DNA of 64,000 nucleotides from Acidobacteriaceae bacterium (GTDB lineage Bacteria > Acidobacteriota > Terriglobia > Terriglobales > Acidobacteriaceae). The stretch covers positions 1-64,000 of the forward strand of contig JAOAPC010000008.1 in assembly GCA_025462735.1 (NCBI GenBank), read 5' to 3'. The position numbers were made by a program, and so were the translations under genes. Below are positions 37,892-45,585 of the stretch, one piece after another (position 1 is the first letter of the stretch; the number at the start of each line of letters is the position of its first letter). Under the pieces are notes generated by a model, which worked only from the letters and a program-made list of their open reading frames with translations, was not told the DNA's origin and did not search any database.

Positions 37892-38914
37892 TTACGGAAC
37901 GAGCACGATCTTGCCGAACATCTGGCTCTTTTCCATGTATTCGTGGGCCGCGCGAGCTTCTTTCAGCGGAAACGTACGATCTACTACCGGCTTCAATCGT
38001 CCGCTAAAAACGTGCTTCAGAACTTCGTGCAGCTCGCCCATCGTTCCCATGTAGGACCCAAGAACTGACAATTGGCGGGAATACACAAAACGCAGATCAA
38101 TGCCGACCTGCGGGCCAGTTGTAGCGCCACAGGTCACTAGGGTGCCGCTGGGTTTCAACGAGCGCAGGCTCTCGTCCCAGGTGGCAGGACCGACGTGTTC
38201 GAGCACGATATCAACACCGTGCTTGTTTGTGATCTTGCGAACTTCCTCCGAAATCTTCTGCTGATAGTGATTAATGACGTGATCGGCGCCGAGTTCGCGG
38301 GCTTTTGCCATTTTGTGGTCATCGCCAGCGGTCGTGATGACTTGGCAATTGAAAAATTTCGCAACCTGGATACCTGCAATGCCGACGCCGGAGTTGGCCC
38401 CGAGCACCAGCACGGTTTGGCCGGGACGAATTCCCGCGCGACCGACGAGCATGTGCCAGGCGGTGAGGAAAACTAACGGCACACTGGCTGCTTGCTCGAA
38501 GGTGAGTGAATCCGGTATTGGGATAACACTCACAGCAGGCGCGGCAATCAGCTCGCAATTGCCGCCATCGACACCGTTGCCGAGCACCGTGAACGCCGGA
38601 CACTGATTTTGCTCCCCAGCTACACACTTCGCGCAATGATTGCAGAAATGCATGGGCGCGAGCAGCACGCGCTGGCCGGCTGTAAATCCAGTCACGTACT
38701 CGCCAACCTCGACTATTTCGCCGGCCACGTCGCTGCCGAGAATGTGCGGCAGCTTCACCCCAGGCAGGCCTTTGCGGACCCAGATGTCCAGGTGGTTCAT
38801 GGCGCAGGCTTTTACCCGCACGAGGACCTGATCTTTGCGGAGCTGCGGATCAGGCACGTCTTCGTAGCGGAGCACTTCGGGCCCGCCAAATTCGTGAATG
38901 CGGACGGCTTTCAT
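37892..38914 (-). CDS. Zinc-type alcohol dehydrogenase / quinone oxidoreductase (MDR family)
   Basis: A 340-residue medium-chain dehydrogenase. The GroES-like domain has GSDVAGEIVEVGEYV and a structural zinc-like cluster in MHFCNHCAKCVAGEQNQC. The Rossmann domain has VLVLGANSGVGIAGIQVAKF. It should reduce or oxidise alcohols, aldehydes or quinones with NAD(P). A strong GAGGAGTCCTC precedes the ATG. A CRP-type palindrome lies 70 bp upstream, shared with the divergent RNA candidate. Confidence 0.9.
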   Translation of the reverse strand: MKAVRIHEFGGPEVLRYEDVPDPQLRKDQVLVRVKACAMNHLDIWVRKGLPGVKLPHILGSDVAGEIVEVGEYVTGFTAGQRVLLAPMHFCNHCAKCVAGEQNQCPAFTVLGNGVDGGNCELIAAPAVSVIPIPDSLTFEQAASVPLVFLTAWHMLVGRAGIRPGQTVLVLGANSGVGIAGIQVAKFFNCQVITTAGDDHKMAKARELGADHVINHYQQKISEEVRKITNKHGVDIVLEHVGPATWDESLRSLKPSGTLVTCGATTGPQVGIDLRFVYSRQLSVLGSYMGTMGELHEVLKHVFSGRLKPVVDRTFPLKEARAAHEYMEKSQMFGKIVLVP

Positions 38915-38983
38915 GAGGACTCCTCGCGAAAACTAAACCATCGACTTGGGCCAATTCCCCTTTTGGAAAACGGGAACATATAT

Positions 38984-38999
38984 TGTGACGCATGTCACA
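38984..38999. promoter_or_regulatory. CRP/FNR-family consensus site
   Basis: TGTGACGCATGTCACA is a perfect TGTGA-N6-TCACA dyad between two divergent transcription units. On the plus strand a -10-like TAAATT at 39022-39027 without a -35 box would put the dyad centre near -42, the class II activator position. It also lies 70 bp upstream of the oxidoreductase ATG on the minus strand. Confidence 0.6.
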
Positions 39000-39033
39000 G
39001 CCAAGGTGGCGGTCAGTCTCCTAAATTGTGGAA

Positions 39034-39269
39034 GACGGCCCGTGTTTGGAGGGCGTTGCCAGTCGGTACTGGACACGGACCGTCAATCCGGTGAATGGTT
39101 ATCAACCACTCCGGTTCAACTCCGCCGTCCTCCGTACTCCATTCACTAAGTTTCTATTGACACGGTGGCTTGGAACGGGCCATCATTAAGATGGATTGAC
39201 GGTCGTGTTCTGAAGTACCTGCTGTTTACGCTAGTAGCCCCGGAGTGATGATCCGGGGCTTTTGCTTTT
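39034..39269 (+). ncRNA. Candidate structured RNA, 6S-like rod with terminator
   Basis: The region 39060-39224 folds by eye into one long imperfect hairpin. CAG 39060-39062 pairs with CTG 39222-39224, GGTACT 39065-39070 with AGTACC 39214-39219, and 39073-39089 pairs with 39193-39208 over 16 bp with one bulge. A central bubble (39090-39110 against 39180-39192) follows, then 39111-39128 pairs with 39162-39179 at 14 of 18 positions. Closing stem, open bubble and apical arm are the 6S RNA architecture. A Rho-independent terminator ends it. No protein frame fits. The 6S name is inference, and a leader for xdhC is the alternative. Confidence 0.45.
39236..39269 (+). terminator. Rho-independent terminator
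   Basis: AGCCCCGGA (39236-39244) and TCCGGGGCT (39252-39260) form a perfect 9-bp stem with a 7-base loop, followed by TTTGCTTTT. It lies 40 bp before the xdhC start and after the rod-like RNA candidate, so it marks the end of a plus-strand transcript that does not encode a protein. Confidence 0.85.
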
Positions 39270-39309
39270 CTAGTTTGACTTCTCTTGCTCTCAGCCAAAT
39301 AATTGATCA

Positions 39310-45439: not shown

Positions 45440-45519
45440 GTCCCTAAAGGGACTCGATCTTTATCTTCTGCTCCCCGGCACTACCGTGCCGGGCTTTCCC
45501 ATACCGCCCCTGTTGGGGC
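45440..45519. repeat. Cluster of three perfect palindromes between gcvT and gcvH
   Basis: GTCCCT-AA-AGGGAC (45440-45453), CCCGGCAC-TACC-GTGCCGGG (45474-45493) and GCCCC-TGTT-GGGGC (45506-45519) follow one another. All are perfect and lie in the gcvT-gcvH transcript. The first two begin within about 75 bp of the gcvH start, so they could affect its translation or mRNA stability. Confidence 0.75.
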
Positions 45520-45585
45520 TGGTGCGTAGTCGCTTAAAGCACTCGATAAAACTCAACTCAGCAAATCTTGACGACCCTGGACTTA

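Follow-up and report, generated by a model that had tools for sequence, protein, structure and literature searches.

What kind of RNA is made at positions 38,984 to 39,269 of this stretch? The window (the whole stretch analysed, 64,000 nucleotides [nt] of contig JAOAPC010000008.1 from the Acidobacteriaceae assembly GCA_025462735.1) carries there, next to an alcohol dehydrogenase homolog gene, adh, and upstream of xdhC, a sequence that folds into a long rod (39060–39224). A first-pass annotation, made from the letters alone, took it for a 6S RNA or a new structured RNA or, alternatively, for a regulatory leader of xdhC. Its account of a structured noncoding RNA, equipped with promoter elements and a terminator, holds; neither 6S RNA nor an xdhC leader is supported. 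What it overlooked is that the 5′ strand of the rod is part of a tRNA-like cloverleaf (39048–39134) and that the two strands of the rod are sense and antisense of one tRNA. As shown by sequence comparison, the 5′ half of the locus is a tRNA fold under selection, and the antisense tracks the anticodon arm of its own tRNA. The reading that we consider probable, if by no means certain, is that of a two-RNA unit in which an antisense RNA would pair with the anticodon arm of an allo-tRNA and silence it. The two elements are the following:

39048..39134, + strand: allo-tRNA-like gene with an 8-bp acceptor stem and a long variable arm, its cloverleaf kept in relatives
39193..39219, + strand: segment of about 27 nt, the 3′ strand of the rod, antisense to the tRNA D arm and to the anticodon stem and loop

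The rod is real: the region 39040–39269 folds to −98 kcal/mol, compared with −71.8 ± 4.2 kcal/mol for 200 dinucleotide shuffles (z = −6.24), none of which is as stable as the native sequence. The terminator hairpin at 39236–39260 is present, with nine pairs and a T-rich tail, and both the TAAATT hexamer (39022–39027) and the dyad TGTGACGCATGTCACA (38984–38999) can be read directly in the letters. The remark that no protein frame fits is borne out, in that only one of the listed frames of at least 80 amino acids (aa) enters the rod (38609–39094, 161 aa, TTG start, mostly antisense to adh). No Rfam family reaches its cut-off over the rod region of the window. The 6S model (RF00013) has no match in the window, nor in the whole genome at E values up to 10, a negative that is weak alone, as just 4 of 14 control genomes gave a match reaching the cut-off of the model. 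The rod with its central bubble does resemble 6S RNA by eye, but the structure conserved here is a cloverleaf plus an antisense.

When 35 tRNA parts are aligned over 93 columns, 96.4% of the cells of the cloverleaf are paired and two-sided changes occur in 14 of its 29 pairs; on each of five measures, the observed value is reached by none of 500 shuffles. The fold comprises an 8-bp acceptor stem, a 5-bp D stem (4-nt loop), a 5-bp anticodon stem, a 7-bp variable arm (91.8% of cells paired), and a 4-bp T stem, and of the two forms that the 12-bp acceptor branch of allo-tRNAs can take, 8/4 and 9/3, the family has the 8/4 form (98.9% of cells paired in the acceptor stem and 97.8% in the T stem). 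Compensatory changes in relatives, which the first-pass annotation had proposed to look for, are found here and in the antisense helix (see following). In the window, the anticodon loop reads CCGUCAA (anticodon GUC), position 73 is G, and CCA is not encoded. Serine anticodons are absent from 68 of 71 loops; in the remaining three, the parse was shifted by one base, which is why one of them reads CGA. The window tRNA combines a GGAG acceptor start, G73 (found in 54 of 71 units), and a long variable arm, as does the tRNA-Ser of the genome; these we take to be the features that count as serine identity elements in allo-tRNAs. By analogy, the allo-tRNA of the window is probably charged with serine.

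Under relaxed thresholds, the best match of the locus is to the tRNA-Sec model RF01852 (39047–39134), with 38.7 bits for a cut-off of 47. Among eight searched loci of relatives, four score 45–58 bits with this model, three of them above the cut-off, and the unit-bearing loci L005 and L010 have no match. Since ordinary tRNAs of the genome reach the window's score, the score is not specific alone, and the case rests on the relatives, where ARAGORN calls a tRNA in 7 of 13 loci. The likeness to tRNA-Sec extends to the long variable arm and the extended acceptor, but a bona fide tRNA-Sec was rejected because the anticodon is GUC instead of UCA and another gene of the genome encodes tRNA-Sec (69.9 bits, UCA anticodon). 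Weak Rfam matches to sX9 and sX12 were taken as chance.

A covariance model of the tRNA (R1) matched, at E ≤ 1e-6, 67 of the 398 genomes of the family, with 1–5 matches each; in eight of these, the sole match is a tRNA-like RNA with a UAU anticodon, leaving 59 genomes. The window scores 87.5 bits with R1 but is one of its 35 training sequences. The 98 loci gave 102 R1 matches; with L154, a copy that carries an insertion, and seven duplicates set aside, 94 remained, of which 92 were distinct. The anticodon arm could be parsed in 80 of the 92, the unparsed 12 being eight UAU-class RNAs, one tRNA-Sec, and the unit-like L082, L089, and L121.

Complementarity to the anticodon arm was scored over 13 nt at the best ungapped site 20–140 nt downstream, the best place being chosen alike for own and other loci. 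In the 80 units, own pairs score 10.36, compared with 5.33 (SD 1.80, n = 5994) for differing loci; the score is at least 6.5 in 72 units, at least 9 in 59, and perfect in 19, and in 51 the own antisense outscores all others. The controls score lower: 4.21 on average, with a maximum of 7.5, for the 35 ordinary tRNA genes of the genome, and 2 to 6 for eight UAU-class tRNA-likes. In L136, L139, and L142, the antisense lies further off, 142–167 nt downstream. An antisense to the own anticodon arm is found in 75 of the 80 units, though the anticodons vary (GUC, GCG, GCC, UUC, and others). The window itself scores only 7 of 13 because of a bulge in the duplex. With gaps allowed, its antisense is computed to bind its own tRNA at about −38.6 to −38.8 kcal/mol, the values for the same tRNA with the antisense of the genome's two other copies being −16.6 and −19.1 kcal/mol, and tRNA and antisense co-fold to −79.6 kcal/mol versus −59.2 kcal/mol for the two alone. 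Across 13 multicopy genomes, represented by some of their copies, the duplex averages −40.0 kcal/mol for own (n = 33) and −24.4 kcal/mol for cross pairs (n = 56), a comparison that favors the own pair, since each antisense piece was positioned where it best matched its own tRNA. A first, smaller test on 35 units gave −37.5 versus −26.7, with the own pair not always best. For the most part, the computed duplexes point to an RNA antitoxin-like pairing potential and to discrimination between loci.

The same relation can be followed at one orthologous site. Sixteen units adjoin adh, a zinc-type alcohol dehydrogenase homolog according to Pfam, and xdhC, whose product belongs to the XdhC/CoxI family (Pfam), is located downstream in 15 of them within the fetched sequence, three times at a distance of more than 1 kb. 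The anticodons of the 16 are GUC in nine, GCG in five, and GCC in two. When 15 of the units are aligned (L088 being left out) and the antisense helix is written from the pairing of the window, 98.7% of 149 cells are paired, with 31 more cells gapped. Two-sided changes occur in 7 of 12 pairs, a value reached by 1 of 500 shuffles, and amount to 28 cells for 8.5 expected, a value that no shuffle of 500 attains; sliding the helix by one to three columns lowers pairing to 24%–43%. The number of further pair types in this helix is not above that of shuffles (238 of 500). Comparison of these sequences shows locus-specific co-variation of tRNA and antisense, and an anticodon that differs among units at one orthologous site speaks against a fixed role in decoding.

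Is the antisense a transcript of its own? The elements surrounding the tRNA and the antisense are as follows:

38955..38968, + strand: upstream palindrome-like element TTCCCCTTTTGGAA, a possible operator
38984..38999, + strand: CRP/FNR-type dyad TGTGACGCATGTCACA, read directly, centered at about −43 from the presumed P1 start
39022..39027, + strand: −10 hexamer TAAATT of P1, the putative promoter of the tRNA gene, with a weak −35 and a presumed start site
39034..39047, + strand: 5′ leader, a weaker second antisense, in cis, to the anticodon arm
39139..39147, + strand: segment of the 3′ trailer with complementarity to the variable arm's 5′ strand, pairing with 39090–39098 in the fold
39157..39186, + strand: P2, sigma-70-type promoter-like site TTGACA-18-CATCAT, 10 of 12 consensus positions, putatively driving the antisense RNA
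39236..39264, + strand: intrinsic terminator of the antisense RNA, a 9-bp stem (39236–39260) followed by a T-run
39275–39303, downstream of the unit terminator: xdhC promoter-like site TTGACT-17-AATAAT

P2, which lies inside the rod, and the xdhC promoter-like site had both escaped the first-pass annotation. Promoters and terminators were counted in 71 nonidentical units with an antisense score of at least 6.5 (L136, L139, and L142 are outside this set), and the counts are conditional because the set was chosen by that score. Of the 71 units, 49 have a P2-type site (at least 9 of 12) in the interval from tRNA to antisense, compared with 2.8% of shuffles and with 2 of 71 on the other strand. 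In 40 of 71 units, the antisense core begins 7–8 nt after the end of the best site's −10, and among units with short trailers TATAAT or TATACT occurs in 13 of 14. A terminator-like hairpin follows the antisense in 65 of 71 units, delimiting a predicted RNA of 52–86 nt, with one outlier of 118. In the window, the antisense is directly preceded by a promoter-like site and followed by a terminator, which points to a separate RNA of about 70 nt. Upstream of the tRNA, 27 of 70 units have a P1 −10-like hexamer (at least 5 of 6), which shuffles show at a rate of 6.1%, and the best −35 matches 2.4 of 6 positions on average. An element like TTCCC N3–5 GGGAA (at least 8 of 10) precedes the tRNA in 37 of 70 units, the rate in shuffles being 4.9%, and dyads resembling TGTGACGCATGTCACA were seen by eye in the adh-linked L118 and L112 and in the unlinked L117, L122, and L147. 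One subgroup (16 of 70 units, e.g., L068, L069, and L071) carries upstream of the tRNA the motif TACTTTCGTGGG, with up to two mismatches, which is likely a regulator site.

The leader gives a similar, fainter signal. In 71 units, it scores 5.44 against its own anticodon arm versus 3.60 ± 0.17 in permutations, none of 10,000 being as high; per unit the signal is weak, the own leader being strictly best in only 6 of 80. In the window, leader and tRNA together are predicted to misfold through pairing of the leader with the anticodon arm. Trailers resembling CACTCGA were seen by eye in many relatives.

The position of the xdhC promoter-like site bears on the leader hypothesis, as the unit ends at its terminator before this site, and the site is kept where the unit is absent. 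In G004 (L168), of the same genus, the starts of adh and xdhC are 81 nt apart, which leaves no room for the unit, and the xdhC promoter-like sequence is present. Moreover, 64 of the 80 parsed units have no match to the window's adh or xdhC within the fetched stretch. In L187 (G007), an apparent remnant of the unit precedes xdhC, with antisense and terminator, lacking the tRNA, beside other sequence.

Several observations weigh against an allo-tRNA held by its antisense. ARAGORN calls no tRNA in the window, the tRNA model RF00005 at E 0.001 gives 46 matches in the genome and none to its three units, and the RF01852 score of the window ranks only 7th of the 23 genome matches, among ordinary tRNAs. 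The fourth T-stem pair of the window is C-C, that is, 8/3 plus a mismatch, and C33 is found in 21 of 71 units by the parse of our script, the window among them; the strength of decoding is unsure on these two grounds. U73 replaces G73 in 17 of 71 units, and CCA is encoded in only 4 of 71, whereas the four ordinary tRNAs of the genome that were fully displayed carry it. Five of the 80 units are without a good antisense: it is partial in L115 and is missing or could not be judged in L088, L109, L145, and L152. In G029 and G067, the antisense of a paralog is computed to bind almost as well as the own one, the difference being at most 0.5 kcal/mol. Finally, allo-tRNA-like RNAs of the UAU class and irregular ones were not usable in Escherichia coli, according to a review (PMC7609411).

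We infer two separate transcripts, silencing of the tRNA, its charging with serine, its conditional release, and its harmfulness, which would fit together as follows. P1, with its poor −35 and possible activator site, would make a precursor of an allo-tRNA with a nonserine anticodon, and P2, which is near consensus, the antisense RNA of about 70 nt. Pairing with the D arm and the anticodon stem and loop, the antisense RNA would hide the anticodon and block folding or decoding of the tRNA. Leader and trailer of the precursor may make weaker contacts of a similar kind, holding it misfolded until it is processed. Upon induction of P1, or if the antisense decays faster than the tRNA, free allo-tRNA would accumulate and, if charged with serine, would insert this amino acid at codons for Asp, Arg, Gly, Glu, or Leu; serine at ordinary codons would slow or harm the cell.

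A stronger form of this proposal, to which we give somewhat less than an even chance, is that the unit is an RNA-RNA toxin-antitoxin or abortive-infection module, serving addiction or phage defense, with the tRNA as toxin. That paralogous copies discriminate is as expected of independent addiction modules, and the pairing sequence changes even at one orthologous site. A weak P1 beside a strong P2 points the same way, as do the patchy presence of the unit (67 of 398 family genomes, or 59 once those with UAU-class matches alone are removed) and its absence from the adh–xdhC site of some relatives; the persistence of a unit beside adh across genera, on the other hand, would be compatible with ordinary regulation too. 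It is conceivable, with about the same reserve, that the anticodon is free to drift between codons provided that the antisense (and the leader) drift along, that several mostly noninterfering pairs can coexist in a genome, and that the whole constitutes a new class of RNA-RNA toxin-antitoxin, with a mistranslating allo-tRNA as the toxin and, as the antitoxin, the antisense that masks its anticodon.

One could also regard the allo-tRNA as a beneficial, condition-specific decoder, the antisense only setting the threshold of a regulated adaptive mistranslation. The CRP-type dyad upstream and the two-sided changes that preserve the tRNA stems would suit such a role, which we nevertheless hold to be unlikely, as the three anticodons among the 16 adh-linked units indicate that no fixed codon is served.

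It is improbable, too, that the unit makes a single long RNA, transcribed from P1 to the terminator, with the rod as a cis-folded structural or regulatory product and P2 fortuitous. The full 233-nt transcript of the window does fold into the rod, at −98.8 kcal/mol, and in the window the interval that separates tRNA from antisense yielded no terminator-like site. Such an RNA would, however, leave the co-variation of the acceptor and T stems unexplained by the rod, and the excess of P2-type sites over shuffles, their strand bias, and their regular spacing from the antisense core are not what one would expect of a fortuitous promoter.

Very doubtful is the converse arrangement, where the antisense would be the effector, acting on other targets, and the tRNA-like RNA its sponge: the RNA made from P2 would indeed be a discrete small RNA with a terminator, but a shared target is unlikely because the pairing sequence, though it matches the own tRNA, varies greatly from one locus to the next. 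As for a 6S RNA or a regulatory leader of xdhC, suggested by the bubbled rod and by the place before xdhC in this genome, the lack of a model match, the xdhC promoter-like site beyond the terminator, and the many units without a match to this adh or xdhC in the fetched stretch leave them practically no chance.

The proposed silenced two-RNA unit can be set beside two known systems. Silvibacterium bohemicum is an acidobacterium. In the review cited previously (PMC7609411), allo-tRNAs with an 8/4 acceptor branch are reported from Acidobacteria, GUC and GCG are among their commonest anticodons, and two allo-tRNAs of S. bohemicum insert serine at leucine codons in E. coli; the link between structure and function is there called "a bit more speculative." The window tRNA shares with these the 8/4 acceptor branch, the long variable arm, and a nonserine anticodon (PMC7609411). 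It differs in its surroundings, in that the word antisense is absent from the main text of that review and its allo-tRNA section has neither leader nor second promoter (PMC7609411). No antisense partner of an allo-tRNA was found in the literature searched; the original description of 2017 (Mukai et al.) lies outside that search and may mention one. The tRNA is of a kind already known, and its antisense partner may be new.

The second comparison is with toxin-antitoxin systems in which both partners are RNAs, known as type VIII. In the available descriptions of CreTA, the two partners are likewise small RNAs, and CreT toxins sequester tRNAs or hit RNAs needed to start protein synthesis (PMC8501985, PMC10097628, PMC9458426). 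As far as these descriptions go, the difference is that direct antisense pairing with a tRNA is proposed for the unit of the window.

Why would bacteria keep tRNAs with clashing identities? An antisense that follows each anticodon suggests that they are normally kept silent. Decoding would be controlled in a new way if a tRNA came with an antisense gene of its own to mask the anticodon; were the tRNA also toxic, it would represent a new type of RNA toxin. A toxin-antitoxin with a drifting anticodon, if true, would explain why the allo-tRNAs of Acidobacteria have so many anticodons. Allo-tRNAs serve as parts in synthetic biology, as far as described in PMC7590224, and discriminating pairs of tRNA and antisense would be candidate switches for genetic-code engineering.

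Judged from the sequences found, the architecture of tRNA plus antisense is recurrent in one acidobacterial family. In the phylum sample, R1 matched 5 of 396 genomes: two family members with units, one tRNA-Sec (G473), and two others. An exact D-arm pattern occurs in 40 stretches of the named genome collection. The titles of 38 name Acidobacteria, Terriglobia, or members of these; of the other two, L049 is taken up below, and L046 (Oscillospiraceae title) was judged by eye to be chance and was excluded from later counts, and L023 and L035 were dropped, being cut by contig ends. As to a viral origin, the same pattern is without a match in the viral contig collection. A 230-base stretch of the window is matched in 8 of 61 genomes, its own included, several of the matches covering the terminator only (e.g., G009 and G025). 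A more distant second class (model R2), with GAG, GCC, and GCG anticodons, has a downstream antisense in 8 of 8 displayed loci, four of which built the model; L231 and L237 are outside the displayed set.

The tRNA-likes with a UAU anticodon (L151, L153, L155, L156, L158, L159, L161, and L163) lack a downstream antisense and apparently correspond to the UAU class described in the review, which is distinct from the units here. In L048, L049, and L051, the tRNAs exceed the usual length (102, about 154, and 142 nt, respectively), apparently through a repeat-like, partly palindromic insert between the variable arm and the T arm; in L051, promoter and antisense are still present downstream of the interrupted tRNA. 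L049 (QHOM01000208.1), which carries a unit with such an insertion, is titled Verrucomicrobia; its upstream sequence is nearly identical to that of the acidobacterial L048, and the contig is possibly mis-binned. Neighbors of the same size are found in L108, L110, and L128 (456 aa, with a gene of 767–835 aa) and in L117 and L122 (968 aa), which, judged by size alone, suggests further orthologous sites. Elsewhere in the window, an Acido-Lenti-1 RNA of Rfam lies at 45474–45520 on the + strand, with 37.6 bits for a cut-off of 37.
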